Positions 4,060-63,274 of a DNA stretch of 64,000 nt are shown here, piece after piece. Origin of the DNA: Companilactobacillus ginsenosidimutans (GTDB lineage: Bacteria > Bacillota > Bacilli > Lactobacillales > Lactobacillaceae); assembly GCF_001050475.1 (NCBI RefSeq), contig NZ_CP012034.1:682001-746000 (forward strand), in the 5' to 3' direction. Under the pieces are notes generated by a model, which worked only from the letters and a program-made list of their open reading frames with translations, was not told where the DNA came from and made no database searches. The translations under genes and the position numbers were made by a program. Positions within the stretch are counted from its first letter, which is position 1. Every line of letters begins with the position of its first letter.

Positions 4060-4148
4060 TATGCTCCCTTCTAAGACTCGCCAGTTAGGTGCCAAAAGGC
4101 TTAAACCTAATATTGAGCGGTTGTAGATGCAATAGTGATTGCAACTAA
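4060..4148 (-). ncRNA. Ribosomal protein L21-type mRNA leader
   Basis: The 5' untranslated region of rplU on the minus strand folds into a first stem (TTGCAAT/ATTGCA) and a second hairpin (TTAGGT...GCC-TTTT-GGC...ACCTAA), then GGCGAGTCTTAGAAGGGAG just before the start. Position and two-hairpin layout fit the known Bacillota L21 leader, which is thought to let a ribosomal protein control its own operon. I assign it from position and fold, not from a covariance search. Confidence 0.6.
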
Positions 4149-8632: not shown

Positions 8633-8706
8633 TGTCACAGGTGAGATTCGAACTCACGACCTACGGTTTAGAAGACCGTTGCTCTATCCAACTGAGCCAC
8701 TGTGAC
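8633..8706 (-). tRNA. tRNA-Arg (anticodon TCT)
   Basis: A complete 74-base cloverleaf on the minus strand. The 7-bp acceptor stem is GTCACAG/CTGTGAC with discriminator A. The D arm is GCTC..GAGC. The anticodon arm is ACGGTCTTCTAAACCGT, with loop CTTCTAA giving anticodon TCT for AGA. The T arm is GTGAGTTCGAATCTCAC. CCA is not encoded. It has its own consensus promoter and a terminator. Confidence 0.97.
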
Positions 8707-51898: not shown

Positions 51899-52816
51899 AT
51901 GAACAAGAAATGGACTAAATGGATCTTAGCTATTGCGGGTCTATTATTAGTAACAGTTGTTGCTGGTTGTTCCGGTAATAAAACGGTTGCTACATTAAAA
52001 GGTGGTAGAATCACCCAAAATGATTACTACAAGGAACTTAAGAGTTCTTCTGCTGGTAAGCAACAACTTCAAACAATGATCATCTCAAAAGCTCTTGAGA
52101 ATCAATATGGTAAAGATGTTACAAGCAAGCAAGTTGATAAAGAATACAACAAGTACAAGAGTCAATATGGTTCTTCATTCAGTTCTATTCTTCAACAAAA
52201 TGGTATGACAACTGCTCAATTCAAGAAAAACATTCGTACTAACCTACTTACAAAAGTAGCTCTTGAAAAGAACAAAAAGATTTCAGATAGTGACTACAAG
52301 AAACAATGGAAGTCATATACACCAAAGATTACTGTTTCACAAATTACCGTATCTAAGAAAGCCGATGCACAAAGTGTTATCGATAAATTAAATAACGGTG
52401 AAGACTTTAGTAAATTAGCTAAAGAAAACTCAACTGACTCAGCTACAAAGAATAAGGGTGGAAAGATGACCCCATTCAACAACGACGATACTGCCGTTGA
52501 TGCAGCTTTGAAGACAGCCGCCTTCAAACTTGATAAAGTTGGTGACTACTCATCAGAACCCGTTAAGACTTCAGTTGGTTACAGTGTAATCAAACTTGAT
52601 AAGAAACCAAGTAAAGGTAAGATGAGCGATCACAAGGCCGAACTTAAGACTAAGATTTATGCTAGTTGGATGCAAGATTCAACTGTTATGCAATCAGTTA
52701 TTTCTAAAGTCTTGAAACGTGCTGATGTTTCAATTAAAGATGATGACTTGAAGGATGTCCTTGCAGGATATGTTACAAAGTCAAACTCATCAAAACCAGC
52801 AACTAACGCTAAATAG
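51899..52816 (+). CDS. prsA: Foldase PrsA, extracytoplasmic peptidyl-prolyl isomerase lipoprotein
   Basis: PrsA helps secreted proteins fold after translocation. The 305-residue protein has a lipoprotein signal peptide ending TVVAGC (Cys24), an N-terminal chaperone region and a parvulin PpiC domain (about residues 140-235, ITVSQITVSKKADAQSVIDK, GEDFSKLAKENSTDSATKNK). It lies downstream of hit and the ytxH-like gene, as in other Bacillota. A terminator follows. Confidence 0.95.
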   Translation: MNKKWTKWILAIAGLLLVTVVAGCSGNKTVATLKGGRITQNDYYKELKSSSAGKQQLQTMIISKALENQYGKDVTSKQVDKEYNKYKSQYGSSFSSILQQNGMTTAQFKKNIRTNLLTKVALEKNKKISDSDYKKQWKSYTPKITVSQITVSKKADAQSVIDKLNNGEDFSKLAKENSTDSATKNKGGKMTPFNNDDTAVDAALKTAAFKLDKVGDYSSEPVKTSVGYSVIKLDKKPSKGKMSDHKAELKTKIYASWMQDSTVMQSVISKVLKRADVSIKDDDLKDVLAGYVTKSNSSKPATNAK

Positions 52817-52830
52817 TGTGAAGTTGTTAA

Positions 52831-52857
52831 AAATAGTCCGTAAGGGCTATTTTTTTT
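52831..52857 (+). terminator. Terminator of prsA
   Basis: AATAGTCC-GTAA-GGGCTATT is followed by seven or more T, 15 bases past the prsA stop. Confidence 0.85.
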
Positions 52858-52879: not shown

Positions 52880-53050
52880 TTCACTTCCGATTCCGGAAGG
52901 AAAAAGATTTTTTGGCTGGAACGTGGTGAATCGACTTGAAGCTAATTGCACGGTACGCAATCATCTCCAAGCTCGATTTTATTCTAAGTGTGCTTCGCGC
53001 ACCAAGAATAACCCCACCACTGAGCCAAAATCTTTTTCCTTCCTCCATCT
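52880..53050 (+). repeat. Structured intergenic element, copy A (related to copy B at 62217-62345)
   Basis: A 171-base element in the gap after prsA. Left arm GGAAGGAAAAAGATTTT (52895-52911) pairs perfectly over 17 bases with AAAATCTTTTTCCTTCC (53027-53043); two T bulge, then GGCT pairs with AGCC. Inside, GGAAC opposite TG forms an asymmetric loop, GTGGTG pairs with CACCAC, and two further hairpins branch off (AATCGACTTG.../CAAGCTCGATT and TTATTCT...AGAATAA). The edges TTCACTTCCGATTCCGGAAGG and CCTCCATCT recur, slightly changed, in copy B. It holds no credible gene. Whether it acts as RNA or is a MITE/BOX-like DNA repeat is open. Confidence 0.75.
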
Positions 53051-53201
53051 GGGATATCGGTCAATTTTTAACTTGATGGGGTTTATGATATGCCACGGTC
53101 ATTGGATGTATATTCATGATAGCTAACTCCCACTTCTAACGTTAATTGGCGGTTAACAAATTATTGTCGCCTAAAAATGTCAATAAAAACAGTTCAAAGA
53201 A
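53051..53201. other. Intergenic stretch between element A and the XRE gene promoter
   Basis: Together with element A this makes a 449-base gap after prsA. I see no gene here; the stretch contains only short partial repeats such as GTTAAC near 53150. Confidence 0.4.
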
Positions 53202-54032: not shown

Positions 54033-54977
54033 TTAATTTTCTGAGTGTTTATAAAATGATCTGTTGTCCATTCCGAAGATGCGTTCGGAAAATTCTCCTG
54101 GGTCGGTCTTATCTAACGCCTTAGAGATCATATTGATTGATGCATCAAGTACATCTATGTCGTGTAATACTTCGGCTTCGAGTAATTTTGGACGTTCTGG
54201 TGAACCGTATTCTAGTAAGCCGTGGTGTGATAGTACCATGTGTCTTAATAGAATCATGTCTTCGGAGTCTAATTTGATTTCTAAATCATTGGCTGCTAGT
54301 ACTATTTCTTCGTCAACAATCGTTATGTGACCAATCATGTTGCCTTCAAAGGTGTATTCGATTCCTAGAGTCCCATTTAATTCGATTACTTTTCCTAGGT
54401 CATGGATACATGCGCCGGCTATTAACAGTGCTCGGTTAATTTGCGGATATTGATCAGAAATTTTTTCTGCCAATCTGACCATACTTAGTGTATGGTATGC
54501 CAATCCACCTTGAAAATCATGATGATTGGATTTGGCAGCTGGGCTTGTAAAAAATTTGTCGTGGAATTTCTTGAATAAATATCTTACGATTCGATTCCAT
54601 GATCCATTGGTAATTTGTAAGAACACATCTTCAAAGTCAGCCTCCATATCAGCACGCTTCTCAGGAGCAGTTTGAATAAACTTAGACATATCAATTGTGG
54701 CAGGATCAATCACACCAAGGCGATTAATCGTCACTTGTGGTTTACCTTGATACAAGTCACGCTTCCCGTCTAATTGGACGACAGCACCGACTTTGAAATT
54801 CTGCTTATCTTGTTCACTTGCATCCCAGTATTTACCGGGAATCTGCCCTGACTTATCTTCAAAAACTAAAGAGAGAAAATTTTTCCCATTCTTGGCTAGA
54901 CGATAGTCAGACATTTTTATGATTGCTTCTAGGCTCATACTCTCACCATTTTTGTAATCGGTAATCCTTTTATCCAT
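54033..54977 (-). CDS. yhaM: 3'-5' exoribonuclease YhaM
   Basis: YhaM trims RNA 3' ends and single-stranded DNA. The 314-residue protein has an N-terminal OB-fold (SLEAIIKMSDYRLAKNGKNF) and an HD domain with HDLGKVIELNG (His-Asp), LAYHTLSMVRLAEKI, MVLSHHGLLEYGSPERPK. The ATG at 54977 follows GAGGGGG; length equals the Bacillus protein. It overlaps the end of yhaN by 8 bases. Confidence 0.95.
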   Translation of the reverse strand: MDKRITDYKNGESMSLEAIIKMSDYRLAKNGKNFLSLVFEDKSGQIPGKYWDASEQDKQNFKVGAVVQLDGKRDLYQGKPQVTINRLGVIDPATIDMSKFIQTAPEKRADMEADFEDVFLQITNGSWNRIVRYLFKKFHDKFFTSPAAKSNHHDFQGGLAYHTLSMVRLAEKISDQYPQINRALLIAGACIHDLGKVIELNGTLGIEYTFEGNMIGHITIVDEEIVLAANDLEIKLDSEDMILLRHMVLSHHGLLEYGSPERPKLLEAEVLHDIDVLDASINMISKALDKTDPGEFSERIFGMDNRSFYKHSEN

Positions 54978-57420
54978 TATTTGCCCCCTCAAGATTCAAT
55001 ATGTGACTTTGTTGTAGATTTGGATTCAAGTTTGCTGTAACAAATATTATTTGGTTATCTTTTGCGACATTCCTAATTAATTTAAATACACTTTCAGACC
55101 TGGCCTTATCAAAATCAACGAATGCATCGTCGATCAAAATTGGTAAGTCAACAATATCAGAAATTTCCACTACAAAAGCTAATCTCAATGAAATATATAA
55201 CTGAACTGTCGTAGCTTTCGATAACTCATGCACATCAAATTTAATCTTGTCACTTCTAGTTAATGATAACCTTTTTTGTTTATTCATACTAATATCAACA
55301 TAATTTCCATTAGTAAGAATCGCAAAATACTGTTTAGCCCTACTTAACATTTTAGGATAACGACTCTCACTAGCCAAATTTAACATCTCATGAATCCACC
55401 TGCTAGCCAATTTGTCAGAAAGCCACTCGTCATATTGATCGAGCATATCTTGTTTACATTGAGCCAATTCCTCAACCAACGATTGGTACGCCTTATCATC
55501 AAAGACTTGCTTCAATTGACTTTCAAGATAACCTTTTTTAGTTAAAAATTCGTTACGTTGACTTTCGGTATCTTTAATTTGGTTATTGAGTTCATTCAAC
55601 TCATTAGGAATCGAATTTAAGTCAGAAACCGTTTCAAAATGAGAAATATCTGCTCCAATATACTCCCTATCAGCTTTCAGCTTGTCAATTTGCATCTGAT
55701 TATTTATCTGTTGTTGATGCAAATCAATAAACGCTTGAGTATTAGCAACATCGTATTTTTTCACGATATCAAAAATCGATTGTCGAAGACTATTTATATC
55801 CCGGTTACTTGAATTCAATATTTGAGACTGTCGTTTCTTATTTTGTTCAATTAAATCAAACTTGGCTTTTGTCGCATTCAATTGATTGTAAAAAGCATCC
55901 ATCTCAGGAATATAGTTATTCGGATCCGTCTCCTTCTCAAGAATTCCAACTTTAATAAACAAATCATTCCATTTATTCAACTCAGCGATACTTCGAGAAA
56001 TCTTGTTTTCCAAAGCATGCTGCTCATCCCTAAGATTATTCAATTGTAAAATCTTTGGCTGCAATTCTATGACTTGTTGAACACTGGACCCAGCCGAATT
56101 GTGTTGAGCTAATATTTCATTCTTCATTTGCTCTTGCTTGACACTCTCATCTTTTGACTGTTGGTTAAGGTAAAACCACCATCCAATTGATCCAAGAATC
56201 CCAATACCGACCACAACTTTTAAAAGATTTGGAACAAACAATAATAGGATTAGACAAACTACTCCAACAATGATCGGCAAACTAACATTGGATGTTGAAT
56301 CCGTTTTGTTAAGTTTTGAAATCTCCTCGTTGCTTAGCAAACTCATATTATCGTGCAATCCAGGGTTGTCATTCAACAATTGATCAGACTGATAATTAGA
56401 TTTTCGTAATTGATTTTGGTTTTGTTCATTTTGGAAAATAATATTCTGAATATCATTTTTCTTATTTTGAATATAATCAATATCAGCTTGATTTGAATAG
56501 TAATTATCCATAAAAGCATCTTCTTGAGGAGTAATCTCATTATCAATTTGTTGGATATTGGTTTTGCTGAGAGTATCCACTTGTTGATTTAATTTCAAGA
56601 AGTTTTCCCAATCTTCTGAACTAATAATATTTTGATTGATGTTCGTTTTGGATTTTAGCTGTAACAATTCCCGATATTTTGGTAATTTTTGATTTAAAGC
56701 ATGTAAATATTTTTGTCGAGAAATTTGTTGCTGATATTGTAATTCTAGTTGTTCATATTGCGAATTAACTGACTGTAAATCACGACTTATCTTCTGATAT
56801 TGCTGTTGTTGATTCTCATACTCGGATCTTTGAACGTGCAATTCGTCATACCTTTTAATTGATTGAGTAAGTGGTTGTTTTTGACCGCGAGGTTTATAAA
56901 TATCCCCACTGTCATTCTCGAGATCATCTGCCGTCTGCAACCATTGTTTACTTCCAGTTGCACCCAAAGCTAAAATTTCAGTTTCTAGTCTTGTTTCGTC
57001 AAGATCATATACTGAACGAATCGTTTGTTCATTTAAGACATGTGTATTTTCAAAATCATCTTTGGTAAATCCTTTAGTAATTTCAGTCATCAATGTTGCA
57101 GGAACCTCTTGATCATCCCTAAATAACGTCAGCTCACTTTCACTTTTGCCGTCAACACGGCGAACGATCCAATGGTTTCCATTTTCACTCAGGAATTCCA
57201 GTTCTCCGCCATAACTAGATCCATTCTTAGGCTTGTATTGTTCATATTTGCTGGTACCACGTGCAGATGCAAATCCAAACAAAATACTTTTTACAAATGT
57301 TAGAAATGTTGTTTTACCAGCTTCATTATTTCCAAAGATAATTTGATAGTCCTGGTTAATATTGAATTCTTGATCAATCCATTTACCAAAACCATAAATT
57401 TTAGCTTTAATTAGTTTCAA
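54970..57420 (-). CDS. yhaN: YhaN-like AAA/SMC-type ATPase (SbcC-like)
   Basis: An 816-residue ATPase with Walker A IIFGNNEAGKTTFLTFVKSI at the N-terminus and Walker B/D-loop ILIDDAFVDFDKAR near the C-terminus, separated by long coiled coils rich in Gln and Asn. A hydrophobic pair (LPIIVGVVCLILLLFVPNLL, VVVGIGILGSIGWWFYL, about residues 375-420) sits inside the coiled-coil region, as in Bacillus YhaN. Such proteins pair with a SbcD-like nuclease (YhaO here). The TTG start overlaps the yhaO stop. Repair of DNA ends is the likely role. Confidence 0.88.
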   Translation of the reverse strand: MKLIKAKIYGFGKWIDQEFNINQDYQIIFGNNEAGKTTFLTFVKSILFGFASARGTSKYEQYKPKNGSSYGGELEFLSENGNHWIVRRVDGKSESELTLFRDDQEVPATLMTEITKGFTKDDFENTHVLNEQTIRSVYDLDETRLETEILALGATGSKQWLQTADDLENDSGDIYKPRGQKQPLTQSIKRYDELHVQRSEYENQQQQYQKISRDLQSVNSQYEQLELQYQQQISRQKYLHALNQKLPKYRELLQLKSKTNINQNIISSEDWENFLKLNQQVDTLSKTNIQQIDNEITPQEDAFMDNYYSNQADIDYIQNKKNDIQNIIFQNEQNQNQLRKSNYQSDQLLNDNPGLHDNMSLLSNEEISKLNKTDSTSNVSLPIIVGVVCLILLLFVPNLLKVVVGIGILGSIGWWFYLNQQSKDESVKQEQMKNEILAQHNSAGSSVQQVIELQPKILQLNNLRDEQHALENKISRSIAELNKWNDLFIKVGILEKETDPNNYIPEMDAFYNQLNATKAKFDLIEQNKKRQSQILNSSNRDINSLRQSIFDIVKKYDVANTQAFIDLHQQQINNQMQIDKLKADREYIGADISHFETVSDLNSIPNELNELNNQIKDTESQRNEFLTKKGYLESQLKQVFDDKAYQSLVEELAQCKQDMLDQYDEWLSDKLASRWIHEMLNLASESRYPKMLSRAKQYFAILTNGNYVDISMNKQKRLSLTRSDKIKFDVHELSKATTVQLYISLRLAFVVEISDIVDLPILIDDAFVDFDKARSESVFKLIRNVAKDNQIIFVTANLNPNLQQSHILNLEGANNG

Positions 57421-58589
57421 TGTTTTTCTCCGATAAATTTCTTATTGATCAAACTTTGCGTGGATTGCTTAATTGCTTCGATAAAATCAGGATCTTGAAT
57501 ATGATCTCTAATAACATCAATATTAAATAACTTCTTGTCGAGATCCTTTATATCTTCGATGTTAAAGACAGCATCCGAACTCTGGTCCCAATATTTCTGA
57601 TCAATTTGTTGAAAATGCTGAACGTCCTTGTACTGAAGTTCAATTTTATACAAGGCTGTGTTAGTGTCACTTTGACTGAAGTGAAGTAGTATTTCGCCAC
57701 GGTCTATCGCGCGTACTACATCACTATTTAATTTTTGTGCATCATCAATTGTCAATGTAAGAAGTCTTAAGTCATCCGATAACAGTTTTTTTGAGATTTT
57801 TGCATTTAAACTATTAATATTATCCTCATCTGAAGCCTCAATTTTTGATTTAATCCATACGTAAGTTGAACTTCCAATGAAATCAATACTAGTATTCTTG
57901 TTTAGAACTGTTACCAAATAAAAGCCTTTTTCACCGGTTTCATTTTGATTACGTCCTTGGGTGTCACCTGAATAAATTACGTAAGGATTTTCATTTAACA
58001 CTTGTCTTTTATGAATATGTCCTAATGCCCAATAATCATAACCTTTTGCAATAAGCTTGCTTACTGTAAATGGAGCATAATTTCCATCTCCAACTCCACC
58101 ATGCAGTATCCCAATTTGATAGTCAAAATCTCCACGTGATGGATAATTTTCAGCCATATTTGCATCTATATGTTGTGAATAATAGCTAAAACCAGTGAGT
58201 CCCACTCTCAATTCATCATGGGAAGTTAGTACCTTTGTTTCAACATCCTTTTGAAAAATATGAACATTCTCAGGAAATTCAATCGAGGAGAAGTCATTTC
58301 TGTAGTAATCATGATTTCCATATATCAAATACACTTGAATGTTATTTTCTTTTAAACGCGTGAATTGATTTTTCAAGAAATCTTGGGCGTTAAGTGAACG
58401 ATCGGTATTGTCGTATGTATCTCCAGCTAAAATAACAAAATCTACTTTTTCTCGGATAGCGGTGTCAAATACCTTTGTTGCAGCAGTGTACGTTGATTTA
58501 CGGAGGCTATTTTGTAATTGTTTGGAAAAATTTTTGATACTACCAAATGGAGTATCTAAATGTAAATCTGCAGCGTGGATGAATTTCAT
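57417..58589 (-). CDS. yhaO: YhaO-like DNA repair exonuclease (SbcD/Mre11-type metallophosphoesterase)
   Basis: A 390-residue calcineurin-like phosphoesterase with the motifs FIHAADLHLDTPFG, ILAGDTYDNTD, YLIYGNHDYYRND, ILHGG and YWALGHIHKRQ that bind two metal ions. It forms the operon yhaO-yhaN-yhaM, with 4- and 8-base overlaps. AGGAGG precedes the ATG. Confidence 0.92.
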   Translation of the reverse strand: MKFIHAADLHLDTPFGSIKNFSKQLQNSLRKSTYTAATKVFDTAIREKVDFVILAGDTYDNTDRSLNAQDFLKNQFTRLKENNIQVYLIYGNHDYYRNDFSSIEFPENVHIFQKDVETKVLTSHDELRVGLTGFSYYSQHIDANMAENYPSRGDFDYQIGILHGGVGDGNYAPFTVSKLIAKGYDYWALGHIHKRQVLNENPYVIYSGDTQGRNQNETGEKGFYLVTVLNKNTSIDFIGSSTYVWIKSKIEASDEDNINSLNAKISKKLLSDDLRLLTLTIDDAQKLNSDVVRAIDRGEILLHFSQSDTNTALYKIELQYKDVQHFQQIDQKYWDQSSDAVFNIEDIKDLDKKLFNIDVIRDHIQDPDFIEAIKQSTQSLINKKFIGEKH

Positions 58590-61166: not shown

Positions 61167-62069
61167 ATGTATCAGCGAACTATAATTTATCACAACGACA
61201 ACGACGAAAAATTAACAATCCGCCAACTTCTACAAAAGTGGTTAATTCCAAAAAAGTGGCAACATTTTTTGAGGATAGAACAAAATATCTTAATAAATGG
61301 GAAATACAAATCATTCAACAACGAGGTTCAATCTGAAGATATTGTTACTTTAAATTTCAATTTCCCTCCTAGAACAATTGAACAGCATTATTTGCCAGGT
61401 AGCAGAAAATTAGATATTGCTTACGAGGACGATGACGTTTTAATTGTCAATAAATCAGCAAACATTAAAACTCACCCTAATCTACCCATTGAGACAGATT
61501 CACTTTTTAATGATGCAGAAGCTTACTTACAACCGAACCATCCCTACATGGTGCACAGAATTGACATGCTGACATCAGGATTAGTATTGATTGCAAAGAA
61601 CCCCTATTTGGTACCAATCTTCAATCGAGAGCTCACGACAAAGACATTGAAACGACAGTACTTAGCAGTTGTCAGATTAATTAAACCTATCAAACATGAT
61701 GGGCAAATCAACTCACCAATTGGCTTCGATGAAAATGATAAACGTAAAAGAAAAGTAATACCTAACGGTCAGTCAGCTACAACTGACTATAAGATATTAC
61801 GCAAAAATTCCGAATACGCTCTCCTAAAATTAAATTTACAGACCGGCAGAACCCACCAAATTCGAGTTCATCTCTCCAGCAAAGGCTGGCCAATAGTAAA
61901 CGACATCCTGTACAATCCCGAACAAGCCACAGGAAACATGTTACTATCAGCAAATAAACTACAATACAAAATCCCCTTTTCAGATGATTTCAAAACAGTA
62001 GAAATTGAACCATCGGAAGATATTAAAAATTTTCTGTTAGAACATGATTTATCGGAACTGGATAAATAA
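61167..62069 (+). CDS. RluA-family pseudouridine synthase
   Basis: A 300-residue RluA/RluD-type synthase. An S4-like N-terminal region (LRIEQNILINGKYKSFNNEV) precedes the catalytic domain with YMVHRIDMLTSGLVLIAKNP (catalytic Asp), YLAVVR and KLNLQTGRTHQIRVHLSSKGWPIV. The catalytic motif is HRID, a conservative change from HRLD. The target uridine cannot be deduced. AAGGAG precedes the ATG; it is divergent from pbp1A. Confidence 0.93.
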   Translation: MYQRTIIYHNDNDEKLTIRQLLQKWLIPKKWQHFLRIEQNILINGKYKSFNNEVQSEDIVTLNFNFPPRTIEQHYLPGSRKLDIAYEDDDVLIVNKSANIKTHPNLPIETDSLFNDAEAYLQPNHPYMVHRIDMLTSGLVLIAKNPYLVPIFNRELTTKTLKRQYLAVVRLIKPIKHDGQINSPIGFDENDKRKRKVIPNGQSATTDYKILRKNSEYALLKLNLQTGRTHQIRVHLSSKGWPIVNDILYNPEQATGNMLLSANKLQYKIPFSDDFKTVEIEPSEDIKNFLLEHDLSELDK

Positions 62070-62086: not shown

Positions 62087-62125
62087 TAAAAGGACCGACC
62101 TCAGCGAAGAGATCAGTCCTTATTT
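62087..62125. terminator. Hairpin terminator between the RluA-family gene and the remnant
   Basis: AAGGACCGACCTC / GAGATCAGTCCTT with a short loop. It follows the RluA-family stop on plus and the remnant's stop codon on minus; four T follow on the minus strand and a T-rich stretch on plus. Confidence 0.7.
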
Positions 62126-62218
62126 GTTAATATCAAATTTTTTCTTGTTCGATTTACGTATTATCCATTTTGATAGAACACGATACCCACCAACAAAAAT
62201 AAATAAGTAGAGTACTAG
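62120..62218 (-). pseudogene. C-terminal remnant of a membrane protein gene, truncated at element B
   Basis: On the minus strand the frame reads LVLYLFIFVGGYRVLSKWII followed by RKSNKKKFDINK and a stop: a membrane-helix pattern, then a basic tail. No ATG, GTG or TTG occurs in frame back to a stop at 62245-62243. The coding-like part begins at the edge of element B, and a terminator hairpin directly follows the stop, as for a real gene's 3' end. I read it as the leftover tail of a gene lost at the element's border. A short peptide with an unusual start is the alternative. Confidence 0.5.
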
Positions 62219-62345
62219 CTGGAGGTAGGAATTAGATAATGCTCAGCACTGAAATTTGTGTTAGTCGGGGAATTGTCCCGACTTACTCAAATTGGCGTCC
62301 AGTGCGTTCCAGCGTTATCTAATTCCTACCGGAAGCGGCAGTGAA
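62217..62345 (-). repeat. Structured intergenic element, copy B (related to copy A at 52880-53050)
   Basis: A 129-base element in the 284-base gap between the RluA-family gene and the UbiA-family gene. Read on the minus strand, it starts TTCACTGCCGCTTCCGGTAGG and ends CCTCCAGCT. The outer stem is GGTAGGAATTAGATAA pairing with TTATCTAATTCCTACC (16 bp, 62224-62330 overall). Inside, GGAAC and TG lie opposite as in copy A, then GCACTG pairs with CAGTGC and GTCGGG with CCCGAC. Stems differ from copy A by paired changes, while the edges and the loop stay the same. No gene lies in it apart from the remnant touching its edge. Confidence 0.75.
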
Positions 62346-62353
62346 CCCCAATA

Positions 62354-63274
62354 CTACTTGCTTATCAAACCAATTATAACGGTGATAACTGCACCAACTG
62401 CAAGCAACCCCACGTAAGAAACCGACAATCGAATCGTAGCCAATAAAACCGAATTCAAATTTTTAGCGGAAGGTTCCTTCAAAAATGGTCTAAAGTTATC
62501 CCAAATACCTGGATAAAATAGGATCAATAACAAGGTTACATATGGAATCACATGCATCAATGCCATGATTGGTACTAGCAAGAAAGCTAATGCCCAACTA
62601 GCTTTGAATAAACTCAAAGAATTATGTTGACCAATTTTTTCAACAAGTGTATTTGATGAAGTTGAGCCCGTTTCCAACTCGCTGACATTTTGAGCAATAA
62701 TCGTCGAGAAAACGGCAAATGTATTTGGCAAACAAATAACGATGATATCAATAATTGTACTTGAATCAATCTTTCCTGAATTTGCTAAACCTAAATAAAT
62801 AAATGCCATTGGAACAATAACTGTCGTGGCAATGGCCATAACAACTTCACCTACAACTGTTTTGTTCAGTGGCTTAGGACCAGATGTGTACAAAAGTCCT
62901 AAAACAATTCCTAAAATTGCTACAACTAAGATAAACCAACCTGTCATATAAACTAAGTATGCAGTAATGACTATTGGAATAAATGCTAAAACATATACCA
63001 TTCGTTTTGCATGTGAAAGCGATTCACGATTTATTCCCATGTCATTAATTTTATTTCTTAGTACGTTCTTGTCAGCTGATCGATAAATATTGTAGTTGTT
63101 GTGGAAATTAATGATCATATGAAAAATAACAACTGCTAATAGTCCTAACAATCCATTTACAAAGTCAAAAGTCATGAACTTTGCATAAGAATAACTTATA
63201 ACCAAAACCATTAGGAACACATCAAGCAATGTTGATTTTACATTAGAAAGTTCTCTAAAAAGTTTCCAATCCAA
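62354..63274 (-). CDS. UbiA-superfamily prenyltransferase-like membrane protein with degenerate active-site motifs
   Basis: A 306-residue protein with about eight or nine membrane segments that aligns with MenA-type UbiA prenyltransferases (GLLYTSGPKPL is the typical PxP loop). The first Asp motif, NxxxDxxxD-like NLANDYGD in E. coli MenA, reads NFHNNYNIYRSAD here; the second, RDINSDRENG-like, reads SELETGSTSS. Both sets of metal-binding Asp are therefore mostly replaced. Activity as a prenyltransferase is doubtful, although the fold is kept. The start is TTG after AGGTG. It lies 13 bases after argS. Confidence 0.75.
   Translation of the reverse strand: MDWKLFRELSNVKSTLLDVFLMVLVISYSYAKFMTFDFVNGLLGLLAVVIFHMIINFHNNYNIYRSADKNVLRNKINDMGINRESLSHAKRMVYVLAFIPIVITAYLVYMTGWFILVVAILGIVLGLLYTSGPKPLNKTVVGEVVMAIATTVIVPMAFIYLGLANSGKIDSSTIIDIIVICLPNTFAVFSTIIAQNVSELETGSTSSNTLVEKIGQHNSLSLFKASWALAFLLVPIMALMHVIPYVTLLLILFYPGIWDNFRPFLKEPSAKNLNSVLLATIRLSVSYVGLLAVGAVITVIIGLISK

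Follow-up and report, generated by a model that had tools for sequence, protein, structure and literature searches.

Two elements of a lactobacillus genome, copies A and B, are probably single units of a non-autonomous, palindromic kind of mobile DNA that resembles REPINs/BIMEs and MITEs, and in which the folded form of the DNA matters, rather than a regulatory RNA. Both lie in a window of 64,000 nucleotides, the whole stretch of DNA that was analysed (G000:C1:682001-746000), from a host genome of 2.59 Mb in one contig. The family to which they belong is real and not random, and it is larger than first thought: apparently it constitutes a large, undescribed repeat family of the Lactobacillaceae, with dozens to about 100 sites in many lactobacillus genomes. 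Its unit measures about 130-200 bp and has a T-shaped fold, which consists of an outer stem, a fixed TGGAAC/TGA loop, an inner stem and two arms (Table 1).

The first-pass annotation had described A (plus strand) and B (minus strand) as diverged copies of one multi-branched element, and the features on which it relied are all borne out. The copies share one edge, TTCACT[T/G]CCG[A/C]TTCCGG[A/T]AGGAA (20 of 23 positions identical), a second edge, CCTCCA[T/G]CT (8 of 9), and an internal block CTGGAACG...CTGAGC, and two stems are exchanged on both sides at once, namely AAAGATTTT/AAAATCTTT of A for TTAGATAA/TTATCTAA of B, and the inner stem GTGGTG/CACCAC of A for GCACTG/CAGTGC of B. The asymmetric internal loop is likewise common to both and is here read as TGGAAC/TGA. 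Their lengths do differ as described, but the cause given, different inner hairpins, has to be amended: B is shorter because the whole of arm 1 is missing. The predicted folds reach -69.4 kcal/mol for A and -60.0 kcal/mol for B, values equalled by 0 of 200 shuffles in either case (z scores in Table 1). B starts 9 nt past the stop of a UbiA-family gene (62354-63274, minus strand; Pfam). A blastn search of the host genome with A returned 36 rows, some of which are pieces of one copy, and the three next-best rows are 95, 91 and 91% identical to A.

Table 1. Positions of the two units, their parts and neighbouring features in the window, and of foreign elements situated in units elsewhere
Feature	Position	Strand	Basis
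Copy A, one complete class I unit	52881..53052	+	model R1, 168.9 bits; fold z -8.06
A, 5' edge TTCACTTCCGATTCCGGAAGGAA, conserved, part single-stranded	52880..52902	+	sequence
A, outer stem, 5' side (partner 53027-53043)	52895..52912	+	fold, alignment helix 2
A, TGGAAC strand of the conserved asymmetric internal loop	52917..52922	+	alignment
A, inner stem GTGGTG (partner CACCAC, 53015-53020)	52923..52928	+	helix 4
A, arm 1 hairpin of the multiloop (B without arm 1)	52929..52978	+	fold, helix 5
A, arm 2 hairpin	52979..53011	+	fold, alignment helices 6 and 7
A, TGA strand of the internal loop	53021..53023	+	sequence, alignment
A, outer stem, 3' side, and 3' edge CTCCATCT	53027..53050	+	sequence, alignment
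Terminator-like hairpin with T-run directly upstream of A	52830..52857	+	by eye
PPIC-type PPIase gene, precedes the terminator-like hairpin and A	51899-52816		Pfam
Copy B, short unit without arm 1	62215..62344	-	R1, 103.8 bits; fold z -7.82
Terminator-like hairpin between B and the pseudouridine synthase gene	62088..62121	-	by eye
Pseudouridine synthase gene, convergent with the UbiA-family gene	61167-62069	+	Pfam
IS3-like two-ORF element in units	L134:2631-4240, L118:2481-4000, L149:8908-10517		
Nested GGTTCTT elements	G031 L252, L253 (1768420, 2181442); G002 site 361869 (L479)		

Model R1 derives from an alignment of 28 copies (A1), whose consensus structure comprises 58 pairs, 40 of them with two-sided change. 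Paired cells amount to 97.2% in A1 versus 80.1 in shuffles, and two-sided cells to 279, where shuffles give 84.5 +/- 7.7 and sliding the structure no more than 31, with the reservation that the cells are not independent, because the copies are related and exchange sequence; further pair types show no excess (62 against 62.0 in shuffles). Two-sided changes affect all six pairs of the inner stem (helix 4) and 13 of the 16 pairs of arm 1 (helix 5), and TGGAA of the internal loop does not vary in any of the 28 aligned copies, whose following C is kept in at least 90%. With so many copies and such strong covariation, the likeness between A and B is not due to chance. Two further alignments, A2 from the host genome and A3 from several other genera, were made by aligning copies to the model and are biased towards its structure. 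By eye, at least three edge classes occur in the host genome: class I (CCGATTCC..CTCCATCT), which includes A, class II (GTTCACTGCCGCC..GGCTAG), which is near B, and class III (ATATGCCGTC..CCGACTGG), which is longer and weaker. Class III units of about 190 nt, for example those at host positions 2059063, 1363611 and 1235381, score 33-60 bits and show the edges ATATGCCGTCTCC..CCGACTGG.

The guess that two copies in the window imply a multi-copy family was right and far too modest, as 105 places in the host genome, relatives and other genera all match. The edge pattern, with up to 3 mismatches allowed, has 18 matches in the host genome (its reversed control has 0), while R1 at E<=1 yields 126 rows, of which 21 overlap better rows and were dropped; among the remaining 105 non-overlapping places are weak matches of class III, the lowest at about 33 bits. 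At E<=0.01, R1 matches 39 of 100 relatives (34 of 36 in the genus, host included, 5 of 25 elsewhere in the family, 0 of 39 elsewhere in the order), and at E<=1e-5 it matches 36 of the 151 genomes in a family-wide draw, which belong to 12 of the 40 genera sampled; these genus and family counts are lower bounds and the zeros no proof of absence, because only 27 and 18 candidates per genome were scored and the filters were stricter. A gapped core pattern recovered at least 120 stretches from a named genome collection. Among the 80 matches listed, all are Lactobacillaceae by title (Levilactobacillus, Lactiplantibacillus, Companilactobacillus, Lapidilactobacillus, Lacticaseibacillus, Secundilactobacillus and MAGs, two of these titled uncultured Lactobacillus), and R1 recognises 155 units in them, none of the 80 being without one. 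The annotation could match no named element to the two copies, and the present searches agree: Rfam holds no match to units at the gathering score, nor at E<=1 on five loci, and no named element of this kind was found in the open-access literature.

Plasmids gave no match to a class I copy or to a unit pair from G031, and phages none to the class I copy, the sole query there, in searches that may omit records near the host genome. Such an absence from plasmids (two queries) and phages (one query), together with an interspersed occurrence at high copy number (105, 92 and 103 in three genomes), would suit chromosome-organising DNA sites, that is, cruciforms to which a host protein binds and which persist because they benefit the host; such a role has been suggested for BIMEs in concert with gyrase or nucleoid proteins. 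We consider this very unlikely here, since 2 of the 36 genus genomes and 28 of the 40 sampled genera show no match at the thresholds used and positions are poorly conserved at the sites examined.

Where two units are neighbours, they almost always form an inverted pair. Where host units lie within 900 bp of each other, their order is + then -, with the 5' edges outward, in 16 of 16 cases, and the same inverted, outward arrangement is found in 44 of 46 such cases in named loci of other genomes, counted over loci with at least two R1 matches (three weak matches, in L309, L340 and L369, left out), the rest being one ++ and one --. Many pairs of G031 and G022 represent one composite of about 520 bp, which has ends such as TGCCGTCGTCCG..CGGACGACGGCA and a terminator-like hairpin in its spacer. 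Lapidilactobacillus pairs (L303, L354, L375, L356, L301, L324, L300) possess a different conserved interior of about 360-400 bp, which occurs in either orientation, is longer where more has been inserted and, when viewed without an ORF scan, holds no obvious gene. Two wide +- pairs of the host (1222502-1224132 and 1290031-1291736) enclose small ORFs resembling toxin-antitoxin genes, presumably MazF-like and RelB/HicB-like.

Units often lie directly behind genes or terminators. According to a crude ORF picker, not an annotation, the flanking genes of the 105 host places are convergent in 34, divergent in 11 and co-directed in the others (33 units sense, 27 antisense), and in 67 of the 105 the 5' edge follows the stop of a co-directed upstream gene at a median distance of 24 nt. 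In G035, a T-run like that of a terminator shortly precedes the unit in 9 of 13 copies read, terminators being judged by eye throughout. On these crude gene calls the units combine many copies, an extragenic position and palindromic structure, as REPINs and BIMEs do.

At orthologous sites, units are gained, lost, inverted and exchanged. For example, the interval between the pseudouridine synthase and UbiA genes measures 291 bp in the host, where it holds B, 497 bp with one unit in G007 and 619 bp with two units in G008, and each of the remaining loci, 21 of the 24 measured, has a short interval of 12-161 bp that is free of units; 6 of the 30 loci could not be measured. In G031 two unrelated loci have a common 801-bp pair, 93% identical, whose limits coincide exactly with the outer unit edges; beyond the edges there is no long similarity, and no target duplication was seen at them. 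This pair and composite ends such as TGCCGTCGTCCG..CGGACGACGGCA display the terminal inverted repeats and the sharp borders at unrelated loci that characterise MITEs. Six units of G031 differ at only 3 core positions, and their left flanks diverge beyond about 30 loosely similar nt, four of them being followed by a common downstream partner unit and two by different downstream DNA. When G031 is compared with close species (G002, G011 and G022 are 91.5-93.6% identical to it at one locus), sites are seen to hold a full pair, one half of it or only a remnant, and deletion as well as gain is evident at several. A whole pair, outer ends included, is inverted in place between G031:C1:1361420-1361865 and G022:C1:1112216-1112662; one orthologous occupied site has its stem type swapped as a block on both arms, and another is occupied in G031 and G002 and empty in G022. 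At site 364850, a unit with its own terminator-like tail stands in place of the native terminator of the empty site (G002, G022).

The paired changes between A and B had been taken to indicate selection on a folded form. The conserved fold and the coupling of changes hold for the family, but wobbles are rare, orientation is unbiased and blocks move as DNA, so that this part of the claim has to be qualified. A structured regulatory RNA, or a 3' UTR or terminator element, maintained for its RNA fold and multiplied owing to its usefulness behind genes, could explain the strong fold and covariation, the conserved TGGAAC/TGA loop, the position of the 5' edge shortly past co-directed stops, the terminator-like hairpin in the pair spacer and in the tails of the G031 group, and the one-sided changes common in other genera (A3). 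We regard it as unlikely all the same. In pair columns that are at least 85% Watson-Crick, the stems of the host genome contain 41 G.T and 60 A.C among 5262 cells and those of other genera 77 and 124 among 6509, i.e. G.T is no commoner than A.C and the wobble tolerance of a structured RNA is not observed; tRNA stems, used as a yardstick, have G.U in 47 of 667 pairs, and A.C is not judgeable there, as the program does not bracket it. Unpaired host units between co-directed genes show no bias of orientation (22 sense versus 16 antisense, p 0.42), the site of B is unit-free in most measured loci, and units are swapped and inverted. An excess of A.C over G.T as the sign of an active lower strand was also considered and is not claimed (per-column sign tests, p 0.058 and 0.20).

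Among copies less than 10% apart (figures summed over divergence bins up to 10%), two-sided Watson-Crick changes outnumber one-sided ones by 18 to 8 in A1 and by 58 to 26 in A2 (host), whereas A3 from several genera has 80 two-sided against 140 one-sided changes; the coupled pattern is therefore strongest inside the host genome, and templating is not the rule everywhere. Rare wobbles, two-sided changes in the host, unbiased orientation and movement as DNA blocks together favour a folded DNA form or hairpin-templated copying, which accounts for the paired changes better than an RNA. In three class I copies the 3' edge carries CCGGAATC instead of CTCCATCT, and CCGGAATC is the reverse complement of GATTCCGG from the 5' edge, as templating would do. 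Copy 1201913 (L017), whose left half is of one type and whose right half is of another, with a damaged stem, looks as recombination would make it.

The flanks of the units point to the kind of site that they may enter. Complementarity between the flanks of the same copy scores 13.02, versus 10.08 (sd 0.20) with shuffled partners (96 copies), and at 30-60 nt it falls near background (10.14 versus 9.55, highest shuffle 10.36); many copies have little of it, because only 27 of the 96 exceed the 95th percentile. The clearest case is again copy 1201913, the flanks of which read like a split terminator. As the moved 801-bp block ends at the unit edges, we infer insertion into existing palindromes, e.g. 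terminators; alternatively, the complementary flanks may be old outer stems that were kept complementary.

If A and B are mobile DNA, folded single-stranded or cruciform unit DNA would serve as the substrate of a putative trans-acting enzyme, which would insert it into existing palindromes, often terminators, so that each copy would have its own complementary flanks. Hairpin-templated synthesis and exchange of units would rewrite both sides of an arm together; the arms would thereby stay complementary, and much of the covariation would be born in DNA and not borne by an RNA. Several findings speak against mobile DNA: no mobilising enzyme was found in the searches given below, no target duplication at the pair edges, site 364850 shows replacement and not clean insertion, several sites show deletion too, and templating alone does not account for the conserved internal loop, for which some selection is required. 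A more far-reaching proposal, which we put forward tentatively and hold to be possible though rather doubtful, is a new transposition system, in which T-shaped inverted ends would be recognised as folded DNA by the putative enzyme and hairpin-templated synthesis would rewrite the arms while the element moves or afterwards, resulting in a DNA-borne repeat with RNA-like covariation and few wobbles. Should it prove right, covariation alone may mislead searches for non-coding RNAs, and the G.U/A.C ratio would be a simple guard.

Genes that recur beside units comprise only insertion sequences, a MazF-like ORF, ordinary paralogues (e.g. ABC ATPases) and spurious ORFs inside units. The neighbourhoods of copies include an IS3-like element and, in 3 places each, an ORF that we take to be IS30-like and another that we take to be MazF-like. 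Among the 36 genus genomes, Y1_Tnp (PF01797) was found in 18, none of which is one of the copy-rich G002, G007, G014, G022, G026 and G031, and an ISL3 transposase was found in 25 and is missing from copy-rich ones. Both were rejected as partners, their distribution not following that of the units, and no ORF-bearing pair that could be an autonomous form was recognised in the host genome.

Other mobile elements have settled inside units. Three host copies break off at their TGGAACG loop, the place occupied in each by one and the same IS3-like element (HTH_Tnp_1 and rve ORFs; Table 1), and for two of the three both halves of the unit were read. At host 416472/418337 a second foreign stretch (..GTTGGCGTAGCCAAC..) separates the unit halves, and at a half-unit at host 1908546 an end similar to this stretch abuts at the same place. 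Insertion sequences that target REP loops are known, such as IS1397 in REPs, to which the occurrence of IS elements inside some units here is a parallel. Elements of the form GGTTCTT..AAGAACC with a unit inside them occupy the arm-2 loop of further units and are bordered by approximate 8-bp duplications; this is seen in two cases that appear to be independent, the two examples in G031 being one event that was copied along with its pair. Since their ends resemble those of the ISL3-type elements of these genomes (GGCTCTTTGTCAAATC), the units might be passengers of DDE insertion sequences, i.e. the cargo or the ends of MITEs moved by ISL3-like transposases. An automated target-duplication test around GGTTCTT ends gave two cases only, with 4 of 8 bases matching in each. 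That the units travel in this way seems quite improbable to us, given that no ISL3 match exists in G030 and G035, where R1 matches 27 of 27 scored candidates, or in G032, where it matches 13, that the common 801-bp pair ends at unit edges and not at GGTTCTT, and that A and B, by eye, lack such ends.

The family works like REPINs and MITEs and is filed as a member of neither. Parvovirus terminal repeats are T-shaped, and the units are like them in architecture only, with an outer stem and two small arms, inverted at both ends. Interspersed repeats of Gram-positive genomes include bcr1; it is, like BOX and RUP, an interspersed repeat of Firmicutes, and all three appear to differ from the units in architecture. 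BOX and RUP are likewise repeats of this interspersed, Gram-positive kind (PMC3049150). MITEs and foldback elements share with the units the non-coding nature, the inverted ends and the sharp-bordered copies at unrelated loci; unlike them, the family has T-shaped ends of about 175 bp, pair edges with no target duplication seen and no identified parent transposon. REPINs occur as inverted pairs in high copy number with compensated hairpins (PMC3116915), all of which the units share, as they share with REPINs and BIMEs the extragenic, palindromic character and the inverted pair as the likely moving form. By contrast, the unit is multi-branched and about 175 bp long, whereas a REP is a simple hairpin of 20-40 bp (PMC3733652), no RAYT partner was found in the genomes searched, and units were seen only in Lactobacillaceae. 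The defining feature of REPs is a short hairpin with an adjacent GTAG/GTGG tag (PMC6006769); in the units no such tag lies 0-2 nt 5' of a short hairpin, and the flank is often GTGGTTCACTGCCG, with the stem about 9 nt further. CGTC-tagged REPs are palindromic, form dimers and have no dedicated transposase found (PMC3733652), and some of our units begin with TGCCGTC, but the former are short hairpins of five other phyla, and the main text of that paper contains 0 occurrences of Lactobac or Firmicutes. In the available part of PMC2267715, the sole lactobacillus mention is Lactobacillus johnsonii.

If A and B are indeed mobile DNA, lactobacilli, including Levilactobacillus and Lactiplantibacillus, carry up to about 100 copies of an undescribed kind of mobile palindrome, which would correspond in Gram-positive bacteria to REPINs but have no known enzyme. 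Template switching has been argued to yield compensatory changes in one step (PMC8794818). The units would offer a natural case for testing whether selection or templated DNA synthesis lies behind compensatory changes in stems, a matter debated for RNA genes in the same source.

Some further elements were observed near units or in the window. A decayed pair of G031 is adjoined by a TnpB-only element of IS605 type (L249:4449-5618; 389 aa, OrfB_IS605 and Cas12f1-like_TNB), and a stretch of about 1.4 kb at this locus is repeated in G022, G011 and G002. At gathering score, Rfam recognises in the whole window only an L21 ribosomal protein leader (4064-4132, minus strand) and a tRNA (8633-8706, minus strand). 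Between A and B lies a gene pair for an AAA-domain protein and a calcineurin-like phosphoesterase (54970-58589), which is presumably yhaN/yhaO-like.
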